Assembly (NCBI GenBank): GCA_009663185.1
Contig: VJZX01000018.1
Location: 6,857 to 61,404, forward strand
Source: Isoptericola halalbus
Lineage (GTDB): Bacteria; Actinomycetota; Actinomycetes; Actinomycetales; Cellulomonadaceae
Direction of reading: 5' to 3'
Length of the DNA: 54,548 bases
Under the pieces are notes generated by a model. That model was not told where the DNA came from. It did no database searches and saw only the letters and a list, made by a program, of their open reading frames with translations. This document shows positions 4,023 through 27,400 of this stretch, piece by piece (the first letter of the stretch is position 1; the number at the start of each line of letters is the position of its first letter). The position numbers and the translations under genes were made by a program.

Positions 4023-5764
4023 CGTCCCCGCCCGTGGCCGCCAGGTCCTGGCGGGCGCCCGGTGGGGCGTCCGCCGGGTCGCTCGGCCGCGGGCTCGGCT
4101 GGGGCCTGGCCGCCTCGGTCCCGCTCGTCTTCCTCGGCGTCTTCTTCGCCTGGCCCGTGGTCTCCCTGGTGTTCCAGGGGTTCTTCGCCGACGACGGCGC
4201 GGGCGGCCGCGTGCTCGACCTGTCGGGCTTCGCCGAGGTGCTGTCCCAGCAGCGCACCTGGCGCGTGATCGGGCAGACGCTCGCACAGGCGACCGTCGGG
4301 ACGGCGCTCGCGGTGCTGCTCGGGCTGCCCGGCGCGTACGTGCTGTACCGGTGCCGGTTCCCGGGCCGCACGCTGGTGCGCGGGCTCGTGACCGTGCCGT
4401 TCGTGCTGCCGACCGTCGTCGTCGGCGTCGCGTTCCGCGCGCTGTTCGTCCCAGGCGGCCTGCTCGGCTGGGCCGGGCTCGAGGAGACCTTCGTGGCGGT
4501 CGTGCTCGCGCTCGTGTTCTTCAACTACGCCGTGGTGGTGCGTACGGTCGGCGGCCTGTGGGAGCGGCTCGACCCGCGCGCCGAGCAGGCCGCGCGTGCG
4601 CTTGGCGCGACGCCGTGGCGCGCGTTCCGCACCGTCACCCTGCCCGCGCTCGGGCCCGCGATCGCGTCGGCCGCGGCCGTGGTCTTCCTGTTCTGCGCGA
4701 CGGCGTTCGGCGTCGTGCTCGTGCTCGGCGGCCTGCGCTACGGGACGATCGAGACCGAGATCTGGATCCGCACGACGCAGTTCCTCGACCTGCGCGCGGC
4801 CGCGGTGCTCTCGGTGCTGCAGCTCGTCGTCGTCACGGGCGCCCTGCTTGCGAGCGCCCGGGCGCGCACCCGGCGCGAGCGCGCGCTGCACCTGACGAGC
4901 GAGCGGACGTCGGCGCACCCGCTGCGCGTGTCGTTCGCGTCCGACGCCGTGCCGGTGGGCGTGACGCTCGTCGTGGTGCTCGGGCTGCTCGTGCTGCCCG
5001 TGGCAGGGCTCGTTGCGCGCTCGTTCCGCGGGCCCGACGGGGCGTGGTCGCTGCACAACTACGTCGCGCTGGGGACCACGGGCGGGCGCAACGCGCTCTC
5101 GGTCACGGTCTGGGAGGCGACAGCGAACTCGTTGCGCACGGCCGCCGTCGCGACGGTGCTCGCCGTCGTCGTCGGCGGGCTCGTGGCACTGGTCGCGTCG
5201 CGGCGCCCGCGCTCGCCCGGGGCGCGGCGGGGCGTGGGTGTGCTTGACGGGTTGTTCATGCTGCCGCTCGGCGTGTCCGCAGTGACGGTCGGCTTCGGGT
5301 TCCTCATCACGCTCGATCGTCCGCTCGGGCTCGACGTCGACCTGCGCACGTCGGGGCTGCTGGTGCCGATAGCCCAGGCCGTGGTGGCGATCCCGCTCGT
5401 GGTGCGCACGATGCTGCCCGTGCTGCGCGCGATCGACCCGCGGCTGCGCGAGGCCGCCGCGGTGCTCGGGGCTGCGCCCGGTCGCGTGCTGCGCACCGTC
5501 GACGGGCCGATCGGGCTGCGTTCTCTCGGGCTCGCCGTCGGGTTCGCGTTCGCGGTGTCGCTCGGCGAGTTCGGCGCGACGTCGTTCCTCGCCCGGCCCG
5601 ACGCCGCGACGCTGCCCGTGGTCATCTTCCGGCTGATCGGGCGCCCGGGGGCGGAGAACTACGGCATGGCGCTCGCGGCGTCGGTCGTGCTGGCGGCGCT
5701 GACCGCGACCGTCATGATGGTGGCGGAGCGCCTGCGCGGCGACCGGCCGGGAGGGGAGTTCTGA
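4019..5764 (+). CDS. thiP: thiamine-type ABC transporter permease, fused two-domain
   Basis: Membrane channel of the importer, 581 aa. Start GTG 4019 overlaps the stop of the binding-protein gene (GTGA), indicating translational coupling. It is a tandem duplication: each half has about six hydrophobic segments and an EAA-type cytoplasmic loop that docks the ATPase, AARALGATPWRAFRTVTLP near residue 190 and AAAVLGAAPGRVLRTVDGP near 478. A single protein with two permease domains is the ThiP/FbpB architecture. Iron transporters share this layout; the riboswitch favours thiamine. Its stop overlaps the ATPase start. Confidence 0.88.
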   Translation: MTSPPVAARSWRAPGGASAGSLGRGLGWGLAASVPLVFLGVFFAWPVVSLVFQGFFADDGAGGRVLDLSGFAEVLSQQRTWRVIGQTLAQATVGTALAVLLGLPGAYVLYRCRFPGRTLVRGLVTVPFVLPTVVVGVAFRALFVPGGLLGWAGLEETFVAVVLALVFFNYAVVVRTVGGLWERLDPRAEQAARALGATPWRAFRTVTLPALGPAIASAAAVVFLFCATAFGVVLVLGGLRYGTIETEIWIRTTQFLDLRAAAVLSVLQLVVVTGALLASARARTRRERALHLTSERTSAHPLRVSFASDAVPVGVTLVVVLGLLVLPVAGLVARSFRGPDGAWSLHNYVALGTTGGRNALSVTVWEATANSLRTAAVATVLAVVVGGLVALVASRRPRSPGARRGVGVLDGLFMLPLGVSAVTVGFGFLITLDRPLGLDVDLRTSGLLVPIAQAVVAIPLVVRTMLPVLRAIDPRLREAAAVLGAAPGRVLRTVDGPIGLRSLGLAVGFAFAVSLGEFGATSFLARPDAATLPVVIFRLIGRPGAENYGMALAASVVLAALTATVMMVAERLRGDRPGGEF

Positions 5765-6564
5765 TGGGGACGCACGAGCGGGGCCGTGGGCTGGAGGTGC
5801 GCGACGTCGTCGTGCGCTACGGTCCGGCGCGAACCCGTGCGGGCCGGGCGGGGACCGTCGCGGTCGACCATGTGTCGCTCGACGTGGCTTCGGGCGAGGT
5901 CGTCGCGCTGCTCGGCCCCAGCGGGTGCGGCAAGTCGTCGCTGCTGCGCGCCGTCGCCGGGCTCGAGCCGCTCGCGTCAGGGAGCGTCGCGTTCGACGGC
6001 GAGGACCTCGCGGGCGTGCCCGTGCACGGGCGGCGCTTCGGGCTGATGTTCCAGGACGGCCAGCTCTTCCCGCACCGCGACGTCGGGCGCAACGTTGCCT
6101 ACGGGCTCGAGACGCAGCGTGTGCCCCGTGCCGAGCGCGACGCTCGCGTGCGGGAGCTGCTCGACGCCGTCGGGCTCGCCGGGTACGAGCAGCGGTCGGT
6201 CGCGACGCTGTCGGGCGGCGAGCAGCAGCGCGTAGCGCTGGCGCGCTCGCTCGCGCCGCGGCCGCGGCTGCTGCTGCTCGACGAGCCGCTCTCGGCGCTC
6301 GACCGCCGGCTGCGAGAGCGGCTCGCCGTCGACGTGCGCGACGCGCTGCGCTCGACCGGGACCACGTCCGTCTTCGTCACGCACGACCACGACGAGGCAT
6401 TCACCGTCGCCGACCGCGTGGCGGTGATGGACCGTGGCCGCATCCTGCAGGTCGACGCGCCCGATGTGCTGCTGCGTGCGCCTGCGTCCGCGCGGGTCGC
6501 CGAGTTCCTCGGGCTCGCGCCCGACGCCGTGGACGAGCTCATCGACGAGCCCACGGGGCGGTAG
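5764..6564 (+). CDS. thiQ: thiamine-type ABC transporter ATP-binding protein
   Basis: Energises the importer on the cytoplasmic face; 266 aa. All ATPase motifs are present: Walker A GPSGCGKSS, Q-loop FQDGQLFPH, signature LSGGEQQR, Walker B LLLLDEP, and the switch His in VTHDHDEA. ATG 5764 overlaps the permease stop (TGATG). It is the last gene of the riboswitch-controlled operon. Between the first strand and Walker A there is a short Arg/Gly-rich insertion (about residues 20-32). The symbol rests on operon context rather than on sequence alone. Confidence 0.88.
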   Translation: MGTHERGRGLEVRDVVVRYGPARTRAGRAGTVAVDHVSLDVASGEVVALLGPSGCGKSSLLRAVAGLEPLASGSVAFDGEDLAGVPVHGRRFGLMFQDGQLFPHRDVGRNVAYGLETQRVPRAERDARVRELLDAVGLAGYEQRSVATLSGGEQQRVALARSLAPRPRLLLLDEPLSALDRRLRERLAVDVRDALRSTGTTSVFVTHDHDEAFTVADRVAVMDRGRILQVDAPDVLLRAPASARVAEFLGLAPDAVDELIDEPTGR

Positions 6565-22900: not shown

Positions 22901-23950
22901 CTACCTCGCCGGGGGAGGGGCCGTGCTCGCACGCACCACGAGCGACGTCGGCAGCTGCAGGTGCCGCGCGCGCGGCGTGCCGTCGAGCAGGTCGAGCACC
23001 AGGCGCAGCGCTTCGGCGCCCATGCGCTGCAGGGGCTGGTCCACGGTCGTCAGCGGCGGGCTGCTCGTCGCCGCCTCGGGGATGTTGTCGAATCCGACGA
23101 CGGACAGGTCGTCGGGCACGCGCAGCCCCAGCTCGCGGGCGACCTCGATGAGGTGGATGGCCGACTGGTCGTTGGCGGCGAAGACGGCCGTGGGGCGCTC
23201 GCCGAACGCCGGCTCGAGCAGCTCGCGCGCGGGGGTGTCGGCCGTGTCGGGGCGGTACCCGCCGACGCGGATCAGGTTCGGGTCGACGTCGATCCCGATA
23301 GTCTCGAGCGCCTGGCGGTAGCCGAGCTCGCGCAGCCGCGCCGACTCGAGGTCGGTACGGCCACCGAGGTGGGCGATGCGGCGGTGCCCCAACCCGATGA
23401 GGTGCTCGACCGCCTCGCGTGCGCCGGTCGCGTTGTCGGAGTCGACGGTGTGAATGCCCTCGGGCCCGGTGTGCGGGTCCACGGCGACGACGGGGATGCC
23501 AGCCGCCTCGGACATGACCATGGTGGGCGTGACGACGATCGCTGCGTCGATCAGCGTGCCCCCGAGGCGGGAGAGCGACCTGCGCTCCCAGCCAACCTTG
23601 ACGCCGCCGTCGCTGCCGCCCGAGTAGGCGAGCAGCTCGTAGCCCGTGCCGTCCATCGCCGCCGAGATGCCCTTGAGCAGCTCGGTCGAGTAGGGCTCGA
23701 ACTCGGCGACGAGGACGCCGATGACGTTCGTGCTCTGGCGCCGCAGGCTGCGGGCGACCAGGGACGACTCGTAGCCCAGCTCGGCGACGACCGAGAGCAC
23801 GTGCTCCGCCGTCGACGCCGCCACTCCGTACCGGTTGTTCACGACCTTGGACACGGTGGCCACGGACACCCCGGCGGCGAGCGCGACGTCGGAGATCGTC
23901 ACGCGGCCCGCGGTACTTCCCACGGGCTGGGGCTGGGCAGCGGTGCTCAC
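22901..23950 (-). CDS. LacI-family sugar-responsive repressor
   Basis: A 349-aa regulator with an N-terminal LacI helix-turn-helix (TISDVALAAGVSVATVSKVVNNR with hinge VARSLRRQ) and a periplasmic-binding-type effector domain (VIGVLVAEF, GHRRIAHLGG, AVFAANDQSAIH, VVGFDNIPEAA). GTG 23950 is preferred; a second GTG at 23977 is in frame, and neither has a clear ribosome site. It is divergent from the ABC-importer remnant and the GH3 gene, with a LacI-type operator between them, so it most likely represses that operon until an oligosaccharide binds. The layout resembles bxlR/cebR of streptomycetes. Confidence 0.9.
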   Translation of the reverse strand: MSTAAQPQPVGSTAGRVTISDVALAAGVSVATVSKVVNNRYGVAASTAEHVLSVVAELGYESSLVARSLRRQSTNVIGVLVAEFEPYSTELLKGISAAMDGTGYELLAYSGGSDGGVKVGWERRSLSRLGGTLIDAAIVVTPTMVMSEAAGIPVVAVDPHTGPEGIHTVDSDNATGAREAVEHLIGLGHRRIAHLGGRTDLESARLRELGYRQALETIGIDVDPNLIRVGGYRPDTADTPARELLEPAFGERPTAVFAANDQSAIHLIEVARELGLRVPDDLSVVGFDNIPEAATSSPPLTTVDQPLQRMGAEALRLVLDLLDGTPRARHLQLPTSLVVRASTAPPPAR

Positions 23951-24018
23951 GGGTCGAGAGTATGCGCTAACCGACACGCCGAACGACTACGCGACGTCCG
24001 GACCTCGGCGCATGTCGA

Positions 24019-24038
24019 AATCGTTATCGACAACGATT
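24019..24038. promoter_or_regulatory. LacI-type operator
   Basis: AATCGTTATCGACAACGATT is an inverted repeat with perfect 7-bp arms; the centre TCGA continues the symmetry with one mismatched pair. The form and its position between the divergent LacI gene and the sugar operon fit a LacI-family operator. The sequence is not the TGGGAGCGCTCCCA site of CebR/CelR regulators. Confidence 0.75.
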
Positions 24039-24140
24039 GACGAATCGGGGCTCGCGCTGCCACCCTCGTCCAGGAGGTCGCAGCGCCTGCGTGGTCGCGG
24101 CCCGGTTGCCAGACCTGTCGACGACGACCGAGGATCCACG

Positions 24141-24353
24141 ATGACGAGGACTGCGCGAGGCGCGACGGCCGTCGCGATCGGTGCGACCGTCTCCCTGCTC
24201 GCCGCCGCCTGCGCGGGGCAGGGTACCGGCGGTCAGGGCGGCGGCGGTGGCGTCTTCGCTTTCACCACGCGGGCCATGATCCCGGCGCTGGTGTCCTTCC
24301 TGGCGATGCAGGAACGCATCGTCGACGGGCTGCAGGGCGCGGTCAAGGGATGA
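24141..24353 (+). pseudogene. chimeric remnant of a sugar ABC importer: lipoprotein signal fused to permease C-terminus
   Basis: A 70-aa ORF. Residues 1-25 are a lipoprotein signal (basic start, hydrophobic core, lipobox LLAAAC), followed by a Gly/Gln linker typical of the mature start of a sugar-binding lipoprotein. From about residue 37 the text is TTRAMIPALVSFLAMQ.. ending IVDGLQGAVKG; a GAVKG end after a hydrophobic segment is the hallmark of MalG-type sugar permeases. The stop overlaps the GH3 start (ATGA), as a permease gene would. The simplest reading is an in-frame deletion that removed most of the binding protein, one whole permease and most of the second. It might still be translated and keep GH3 coupled. 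Confidence 0.7.
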
Positions 24354-26845
24354 CCGCGCCGAGGAAGGGACCGATGGACCCCGTGACCGACGCCGCCCGC
24401 GCACCCGCGGCGGCGCCGCCCGCGATGCCGCACGTCTCCGACCGCGTCGTCGCGCTGCACGCACGGATGACCCTCGACGAGAAGCTCGCGCAGCTCGTCG
24501 GGTACTGGCTCGACCAGGGCGGCGAGGTCGTCGCGCCCTGGCAGGGAGAGATGGCCTCGGGCTCGGGCGCGCTGTCTCAGATCACGCGCCACGGCATCGG
24601 CCACTACACGCGCGTCTACGGCACACGCCCGGTCGAGCCGGCCGAGCGCGCCGGGTGGCTGTGGTCCGAGCAACGCCGGCTCAAGGCCGAGACGCGGCTC
24701 GGGATCCCGGCCCTGGTCCACGAGGAGTGCCTCACCGGGCTCGCCGCGTGGAAGGCGGCGACCTTCCCGACGCCGCTCGCATGGGGCGCGTCGTTCGACC
24801 CGGCGCTCGTCGAGGAGATGGGCCGCCTCATCGGCGAGTCGATGCGCACGCTCGGAATCCACCAGGGCCTCGCGCCCGTGCTCGACGTCATCCGCGACCC
24901 GCGCTGGGGACGCGCCGACGAGTGCATCGCCGAGGACCCGTACGTGGTCGGCACGGTGGGGACGGCGTACGTGCGCGGGCTGCAGGACGCCGGGGTGCAC
25001 GCGACGCTCAAGCACTTCGTCACGTACTCCGCCTCTCGCGCGGGGCGCAACCACGCGCCCGTCTCGGCGGGGCCGCGCGAGGTAGCCGACGTGTTCCTGC
25101 CGCCGTTCGAGATGGCCCTGCGCGACGGCGGTGTCCGCTCGGTCATGGCGTCCTACAACGAGCTCGACGGCGTGCCGGTGCACTCGAGCCCCGAGCACCT
25201 CACGGGCGTGCTGCGCGAGCAGTGGGGGTTCGACGGCGTCGTGGTCTCCGACTACTTCGGCGTCGCGTTCCTCGAGGTCATGCACGGGGTGGCTGCCTCT
25301 AGCGGAGAGGCCGCGGGCCGGGCGCTCGCAGCGGGCGTCGACGTCGAGCTGCCGACCGGGAACGCCTACCTCGAGCCGCTCGCGGTGGCGGTCCGCTCGG
25401 GCCAGGTCGACGAGGTGCTCGTGGACCGGGCGGTGCTGCGCGCGCTCGCGCAGAAGGAGGAGCTGGGCCTGCTCGACGACGACGCGTTCGCGGACGAGCC
25501 GCCCGCCGTCGTCGACCTCGACACGCCGCGGCACCGTGAGGTGGCGCGACGCCTCGCCGAGGAGTCCGTGGTGCTGCTGAGCAACGACGGCCTGCTGCCG
25601 CTGCGTTCGTGGCGGGACGCGCCGTCGCGCGTGGCGGTCGTCGGGCCGGGCGCACACCGTGCCGACGCACTGATGGGGTGCTACTCGTTCGCGAACCACG
25701 TGCTGGTGCACCACCCGGACCAGCCGCTCGGCTTCGAGATCCCGACAGTGTTCGAGGCGGTCGGCGCCGCGTTCGCCGAGCTGTTCGGAGAGGCCGGGCC
25801 GCCGCAGCCCAAGCTCGTGTACGCACGCGGCTGCGACGTCGAGGGCGAGGACACCTCGGCGTTCGCCGAAGCTCGCGCTGCGGCTTCGGCCGCCGACGTG
25901 GCGGTCGTCGTCGTGGGCGACCAGGCCGGCCTTTTCGGGCGCGGCACGGTGGGCGAGGGCAACGACTCCGAGTCCCTCGAGCTGCCGGGCGTGCAGCGCC
26001 GGCTCGTCGAGGAGGTTCTCGCCACGGGGACGCCGGTGGTCATGGTCGTGCTCTCCGGCCGGCCGTACGCGATCGGATGGGCGCTCGACGGCCACCAGCG
26101 GCCCGGTGCGGTGCTGCAGGCGTTCTTCCCGGGCGAGGAGGGCGGCACGGCGATCGCGCGGGTCATCACGGGCGCGGTCAACCCGTCCGGGCGGCTCCCG
26201 GTGTCGCTCCCGCGATCGGCCGGAGCGCAGCCGTACTCGTACCTGCACCCGATGCTCGGCGGGCGGTCGGACGTCACGTCGACCGACTCGACGCCGGCAC
26301 GGCCCTTCGGGTTCGGGCTGTCGTACACGGCGTTCTCCCACTCGGAGCTCGCGGTGGACGCCGAGGTTCAGGCCGGAGGGGTGTTCTCCGCGGCGGTCCG
26401 CGTGGCCAACTCCGGGAACGTCACGGGGGCCGACGTCGTGCAGCTCTACGGGCGCGACGTCGTCGGGTCGGTCACGCGGCCCGTGGCGCAGCTGCTCGCC
26501 TACGAGCGCGTCGAGCTCGGGCCGGGCGAGTCCGCCGTCGTGCGGTTCACCGTGCCGACGTCGCGGCTGGCGTTCAGCGACCGGCGCCTGGTGCGCATCG
26601 TCGAGCCCGGCGACGTCGAGGTGTGGGTCGGGTCCCACGCCGCGGCCGCCACGACCGGCGTGACCGAGGACGCCAGTCAGGCGGCGAGCGGTGTCTTCAC
26701 CAACGAGAAGGCCGTCGCGAGGCGCGACCTGCCGGGGACCGCGACGCCGCGCGTGACGCTGTCGATCACCGGCGCCGTGCACGAGGTGACCGCTGCCGAT
26801 CCCCGCCTCGCCACCGCCGAGGTAGAACGGATTCCCGCGGGGTAG
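24350..26845 (+). CDS. glycoside hydrolase family 3 (beta-xylosidase / beta-glucosidase, BxlA-like)
   Basis: An 831-aa GH3 enzyme that should release xylose or glucose from short oligosaccharides. The N-terminal barrel has KHFVTYSASRAGRNHAPV and the nucleophile Asp in VVVSDYFGV (about 301); the alpha/beta domain follows (VVGDQAGLFGRG...), then a fibronectin-III-like domain to the end. No signal peptide is seen, so it is probably cytoplasmic and acts on imported sugar. ATG 24350 overlaps the importer remnant's stop; ATG 24374 is an alternative. The SDYFG context and ELPTGNAYLEPL block favour the streptomycete bxlA type. Its final residues (AEVERIPAG) are encoded by the first unit of a 20-bp repeat array. 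Confidence 0.9.
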   Translation: MTAPRKGPMDPVTDAARAPAAAPPAMPHVSDRVVALHARMTLDEKLAQLVGYWLDQGGEVVAPWQGEMASGSGALSQITRHGIGHYTRVYGTRPVEPAERAGWLWSEQRRLKAETRLGIPALVHEECLTGLAAWKAATFPTPLAWGASFDPALVEEMGRLIGESMRTLGIHQGLAPVLDVIRDPRWGRADECIAEDPYVVGTVGTAYVRGLQDAGVHATLKHFVTYSASRAGRNHAPVSAGPREVADVFLPPFEMALRDGGVRSVMASYNELDGVPVHSSPEHLTGVLREQWGFDGVVVSDYFGVAFLEVMHGVAASSGEAAGRALAAGVDVELPTGNAYLEPLAVAVRSGQVDEVLVDRAVLRALAQKEELGLLDDDAFADEPPAVVDLDTPRHREVARRLAEESVVLLSNDGLLPLRSWRDAPSRVAVVGPGAHRADALMGCYSFANHVLVHHPDQPLGFEIPTVFEAVGAAFAELFGEAGPPQPKLVYARGCDVEGEDTSAFAEARAAASAADVAVVVVGDQAGLFGRGTVGEGNDSESLELPGVQRRLVEEVLATGTPVVMVVLSGRPYAIGWALDGHQRPGAVLQAFFPGEEGGTAIARVITGAVNPSGRLPVSLPRSAGAQPYSYLHPMLGGRSDVTSTDSTPARPFGFGLSYTAFSHSELAVDAEVQAGGVFSAAVRVANSGNVTGADVVQLYGRDVVGSVTRPVAQLLAYERVELGPGESAVVRFTVPTSRLAFSDRRLVRIVEPGDVEVWVGSHAAAATTGVTEDASQAASGVFTNEKAVARRDLPGTATPRVTLSITGAVHEVTAADPRLATAEVERIPAG

Positions 26846-26878
26846 AACGTTCCGCACCGAGGTAGAACGCTTCCCTTG
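26819..26878. repeat. three tandem 20-bp units (left cluster)
   Basis: Units begin at 26819, 26839 and 26859 and read GAGGTAGAACGGATTCCCGC, GGGGTAGAACGTTCCGCACC and GAGGTAGAACGCTTCCCTTG. The core GAGGTAGAACG.TTCC repeats every 20 bases. The first unit overlaps the end of the GH3 gene. A matching cluster in the opposite orientation lies at 27346-27400, beyond the S4 gene. Confidence 0.75.
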
Positions 26879-26943
26879 GAGGTCGCCATCCTGTCCGCTT
26901 TCCACCGGTTTTCCAGAAGGGATGGCGACCTCGAAGGGAAGCG
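26868..26943. repeat. long inverted repeat (24-bp arms) after the GH3 gene
   Basis: The left arm (26868-26891, containing CCCTTGGAGGTCGCCATCC) and right arm (26920-26943) are complementary over 24 bases with one mismatch, around a 28-base loop containing TTTCCACCGGTTTTCCAG. It overlaps the last of the 20-bp units. A transcript would form a strong hairpin, so it may terminate the GH3 operon. Confidence 0.75.
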
Positions 26944-27341: not shown

Positions 27342-27345
27342 ACCC

Positions 27346-27400
27346 GCGCTACCTCGGCGAGAAACGTTCTACCTCGGCGAAAGAGCTTCTACCTCGGCGG
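27346..27400. repeat. three 20-bp-spaced units, inverted relative to the left cluster
   Basis: CTACCTCGGCG recurs at 27349, 27369 and 27389, the last two within TTCTACCTCGGCG. Read on the other strand the unit is CGCCGAGGTAGAAC, the same core as the cluster at 26819-26878. The spacing is again 20 bases. The cluster lies between the stops of the S4 gene and the MerR gene. Confidence 0.75.

Follow-up and report, generated by a model that had tools for sequence, protein, structure and literature searches.

The 70-aa ORF at positions 24141-24353 on the forward strand of the window, by which we mean the whole analysed stretch of 54,548 nucleotides, is in all likelihood a deletion-fusion remnant of a sugar importer operon encoding a binding protein (SBP) and the permeases MalF and MalG, a reading well supported by comparison with related loci. 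Nearly all of this importer, which appears to have been of the xylo-oligosaccharide (XOS) type, would have gone in a deletion of about 3.06 kb that kept the reading frame and was probably joined at a 4-bp microhomology. What is left would be the old start region, including its ribosome-binding site and lipoprotein signal, followed directly by the last helix and tail of the permease. The chimera is most likely functionless and drifting, and the LacI-regulated GH3 gene would persist without a dedicated importer. We hold this explanation as a whole with high confidence. The features of the locus are compiled in Table 1.

Table 1. Features between the LacI-family regulator and the GH3 gene, with positions in the window.
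Feature	Position	Strand	Evidence
LacI-family regulator	22904..23977	-	Pfam LacI and Peripla_BP_3; 86% identical to the LacI of L040
Perfect palindromic operator AATCGTTATCGACAACGATT	24019..24038	.	0 mismatches; same site in relatives
Shine-Dalgarno-like GAGG and spacer kept from the old SBP gene	24130..24140	+	
SBP remnant: codons 1-37, covering the lipoprotein signal and Gly linker	24141..24251	+	Comparison with relatives
Junction of the deletion, with GGCG as 4-bp microhomology	24249..24252	+	Contained in both blastn arms, for L040 as well as L039
MalG remnant, last 33 codons and stop	24252..24353	+	Differs at 4 sites that are invariant in 14 relatives
GAGGAAGG, resembling a Shine-Dalgarno sequence, with spacer to the likely GH3 start	24361..24373	+	
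GH3 beta-xylosidase/alpha-L-arabinosidase	24374..26845	+	NF052329 1313.9 bits (cut-off 1050); Pfam GH3 domains

The ORF encodes a lipoprotein signal with its Cys, a Gly-rich stretch and then FTTRAMIPALVSFLAMQERIVDGLQGAVKG. In a profile search the ORF alone stayed below every Pfam and NCBIfam cut-off; synteny was therefore used for its identification. An earlier note on this DNA had read the two halves as the start of a binding protein and the end of a MalG permease, and this was borne out when each half was aligned separately: SBP codons 1-37 run in frame into the last 33 codons of MalG. Positions 24132-24224 share 96.8% identity with residues 1-31 of the SBP reading frame of G001/L040, and positions 24252-24350 are 87.9% identical to the MalG C-terminus of the same reference. 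In the related loci L040 and L039 the SBP starts with MTRTMRGATAVAIGA(T/A)VSLLAAACAGQGT and MalG ends with GVFAFTTLAMIPALVFFLAMQKRIVNGLQGAVKG, corresponding to the first and second half of the window ORF, respectively. Both ends of the ORF are homologous to the ends of the SBP-MalF-MalG operon in order and orientation. The region directly in front of the start codon has one G fewer than in L039/L040.

A search with the downstream GH3 gave matches in 55 of 58 related genomes, and we fetched 20 relatives, comprising 16 of the 17 other genomes of the genus (Isoptericola, according to a named collection of GH3 loci) and four from other genera of the family; G007 was left out because its contig ends inside GH3. 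LacI on the minus strand, SBP, MalF, MalG and GH3 follow each other in that order in all 20, in agreement with the proposal that an ABC sugar importer belongs between regulator and glycosidase. The Isoptericola MAG locus L089 is identical to the G015 references over LacI, SBP, MalF and MalG. Using window positions 24001-24420 as query, the two halves of the ORF are separated by about 3.06 kb in the three nearest genomes G001, G007 and G015 (for G007 judged from the two query stretches only) and are contiguous only in the genome of the window (G000). Conservation of the ORF in many genomes, named beforehand as evidence against a remnant, was not found: the join occurs in one of 18 genus genomes. 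An importer of the same type (type a, see below) is present in 15 of these 18, and in G002 and G014 the slot is filled by another importer, whose SBP is about 40% identical. Among 80 named GH3 loci (one of them, L136, cut by a contig start) SBP, MalF and MalG were matched in 78, including L114 and L132, where the contig begins within the SBP. A LacI was matched immediately upstream in 67 of the 80, and the regulator is therefore not universal at GH3 loci. A limited literature search yielded no paper on the LacI-GH3 locus.

At the nucleotide level the window shares regulator, operator, GH3, SBP start and MalG end with L039 and L040, and differs from them in having lost all importer codons except 37 of SBP and 33 of MalG. 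In blastn alignments the first arm ends at 4727 and the second restarts at 7787 of L040, and against L039 the corresponding positions are 1556 and 4619. The number of missing bases is 3063 in comparison to L040 and 3066 in comparison to L039, both multiples of three; a single in-frame deletion of some 3 kb, as the earlier note had suggested, fits these measurements. No inserted sequence was seen at the join in the window. Joining through the GGCG shared by both arms is only suggestive, because a match of at least 4 bp is expected at a random join with a chance of about 3% at the base composition found here. Recombination between Gly-codon repeats, also suggested earlier, is not supported: L039 and L040 have just one Gly codon at the MalG breakpoint, and the two sides have no more than GGCG in common, so that we propose the microhomology instead. 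In deletion-fusion pseudogenes of operons, an internal deletion connects the start of one gene with the end of another further along. The window differs in that the reading frame continues through the fusion and neither neighbour was lost.

For the SBP orthologue of G015 the best PDB match is 3zkk, an XOS-binding protein (3.5e-94), which we take to derive from Bifidobacterium lactis Bl-04; 3vxb, presumably BxlE, ranks third (5.6e-31) in a comparison without a CebE reference. The lost importer would therefore have been of the XOS type, its substrate being judged from these matches. The suggestion of a bxlEFG- or cebEFG-like operon holds with respect to an importer operon at this site, but its class would rather be the XOS type. 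The type-b SBP of L092 matches 3zkk even better (3.8e-130). The XOS-induced locus Balac_0513-0517 of B. lactis Bl-04 consists of a LacI-type regulator, an SBP, two permeases and a GH43 beta-xylosidase (PMC3684542). The ancestral Isoptericola locus likewise lines up genes for these five functions; however, the beta-xylosidase of Bl-04 belongs to GH43 and that of Isoptericola to GH3, and the Bl-04 importer is intact (PMC3684542).

On the downstream side, the best PDB chain for GH3 is 7zb3, a beta-xylosidase, and no signal peptide was seen by eye. An ATG at 24350 is in frame with GH3, and the chimera had been described as overlapping the GH3 start. All 12 relatives with ATGA at the MalG stop have another ATG or GTG no more than about 25 nt further on, preceded by a Shine-Dalgarno-like stretch (by eye). 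The GH3 start is likely 24374, 21 nt downstream of the chimera stop codon; a true overlap is unlikely because this conserved start has its own Shine-Dalgarno-like stretch. On the other side, the start of LacI that is conserved in relatives is probably the GTG at 23950. The ORF lies downstream of a LacI operator as claimed, the palindrome being intact; elsewhere in the genome the operator has one match at up to 2 mismatches, with 2 mismatches. With LacI, operator and GH3 remaining and no importer genes relocated, the view that a regulated glycosidase was kept and its dedicated importer lost was upheld, and the cell would have lost XOS uptake.

The genome is a draft in 110 contigs, and the importer might be intact in the cell if the contig had been wrongly joined across 3 kb. 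However, the assembly is listed as 100% complete (0.46% contaminated) and the missing genes are nowhere else in it: apart from the remnant, the highest identities found for SBP, MalF and MalG are 37%, 37% and 39%. The join is also seamless and located mid-contig (G000:C21:30997-31206 of 61404 bases). Further evidence comes from columns that are fixed in the relatives. We compared 15 sequences, made up of the window plus those 14 fetched members of the genus whose importer is of type a, leaving out two type-b relatives of the genus and four from other genera. The MalG tail has four window-only residues at columns fixed in the others, as opposed to one in the 14 others together. These four changes, seen in no intact relative, argue for real decay over misassembly, and we regard an assembly error as extremely unlikely. 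The notion that an unrelated small gene resembles the importer ends by chance would fit the lack of profile matches for the ORF alone, but both arms match the two ends of the importer operon at the DNA level and in synteny, and it can be considered refuted.

Several observations count against a dead remnant: the frame is still open, the Shine-Dalgarno-like stretch and the lipoprotein signal are intact, and the SBP head, although short, has no window-only changes at fixed columns and no sign of relaxation. Together with the short distance between its stop codon and the likely GH3 start, this would suit a retained functional piece, either a short lipoprotein anchored in the membrane or a translated leader aiding GH3 expression. 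On the other hand the chimera is unconserved within the genus, its four tail changes introduce polar or charged residues, with the peak hydropathy falling from 2.29 to 1.66, and GH3 does not depend on it for a Shine-Dalgarno-like stretch; we consider a retained function very unlikely. Returning to the deletion remnant, the MalG tail has 72.7 nonsynonymous sites, and dS of the window branch is near 0.2 by three-point estimates. About 14-15 tail changes would be expected if the tail had been free over the whole branch; since 4 are observed, the deletion may fall within about the final third of the window branch, with a wide error.

Other transporters of the genome were inspected as well. A GH43-linked importer on contig C45 (SBP-MalF-MalG-GH43) was considered as a possible substitute and set aside; its SBP is 27% identical to the lost SBP. 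The nearest remaining SBP, on C38 (35%), matches 3zkk at only 1.6e-9, and 3zkk is not among the matches listed for the SBP on C32. At window positions 4124-6564 a weak MalF-like permease match (25%) is followed by an ABC ATPase, a separate ABC transporter unrelated to the lost importer.

Both neighbouring frames, LacI and GH3, are open. GH3 is under purifying selection, with dN/dS values of 0.21-0.29 between the window and four relatives and of 0.12-0.30 for pairs without the window. Ratios above 1 for SulP in pairs with L040 were taken as misplaced alignment and set aside. At otherwise fixed columns GH3 of the window has 16 window-only residues, the most of the 15 sequences (next 13), and LacI has 10, second to 11; two neighbouring genes, a response regulator (6 genomes, few columns) and an S4 gene (10 genomes), have none. 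Relative-rate tests exceeded a chi-square of 3.84 in four of six cases for LacI, suggesting mild, partly significant signs of relaxation. For GH3 none of six did, and decay of the remaining locus is for this reason unproven with regard to GH3. In a FastTree of GH3 the end branch of the window measures 0.14, those of its sisters 0.054 and 0.052, with a further shared stem of 0.051. Considering L039 and L040 alone, dN (window-L039 0.092, window-L040 0.099, L039-L040 0.045) would point to a strong acceleration; this was rejected, as the outgroup L042 gives 0.140, 0.130 and 0.133. Around GH3 residues 256-300, counted from 24374, the window resembles the distant L042, and L039 and L040 share a different stretch; gene conversion possibly took place here. 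Further downstream, short repeated phrases (gaggtagaacg and an inverse tacctcggcg-like form) at 26820-26880 and 27345-27400 flank a small S4-type gene.

Of greater interest than the remnant itself is the repeated exchange of importers that relatives show at the LacI-GH3 slot. Across loci L039-L058 and L089-L168 the slot is shared by two XOS-type importers, with SBP types a and b, and both occur within each of the genera Isoptericola, Promicromonospora, Cellulosimicrobium, Microbacterium and Nocardioides. For each locus we took the type with the higher tblastn score; identities to the two types differed by at least 11.7 points. In a quick FastTree without bootstrap of 93 distinct GH3 (7 identical loci dropped, L039 omitted for its named copy L089) 26 loci are of type a, 64 of type b, 2 have none and 1 is not assessable. 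The tree needs 10 changes between a and b, and starred branches force 9/10 for b and 10/11 for a, which points to repeated exchange of the importer in this slot. Among the 92 assessable loci the only further case in which LacI adjoins GH3 without an importer is L156:2165-6271, from a Promicromonosporaceae MAG. No importer remnant was recognised in the L156 slot, and its GH3, of odd letter make-up, sits on the longest end branch in the tree (0.39). One might regard the slot as a replaceable, dispensable module, exchanged about ten times and emptied twice (window and L156), with the GH3 of the window re-purposed to a substrate entering via another importer and the chimera kept as a translated leader; we think this combination unlikely.

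As far as the window is concerned, the case is a clear but ordinary gene loss. It gives a snapshot of a decaying locus in which the transporter was lost first and regulator and enzyme linger, and it warns that LacI and GH3 alone are a poor basis for predicting XOS use. It is plausible that the lineage gave up the use of xylan and XOS, the regulated GH3 lingering. GH10 is found in 16 of the 18 genus genomes; the two without it, G000 and G002, are both without a type-a importer. All 15 genomes with a type-a importer have GH10, in comparison to one of the three others (Fisher p = 0.02, for a test chosen post hoc). GH11 occurs in one of the 18 and is absent from G000. GH43 is represented in G000 by 19 matched stretches, 15 of them above the cut-off by themselves, and other pentose-linked enzymes therefore remain.
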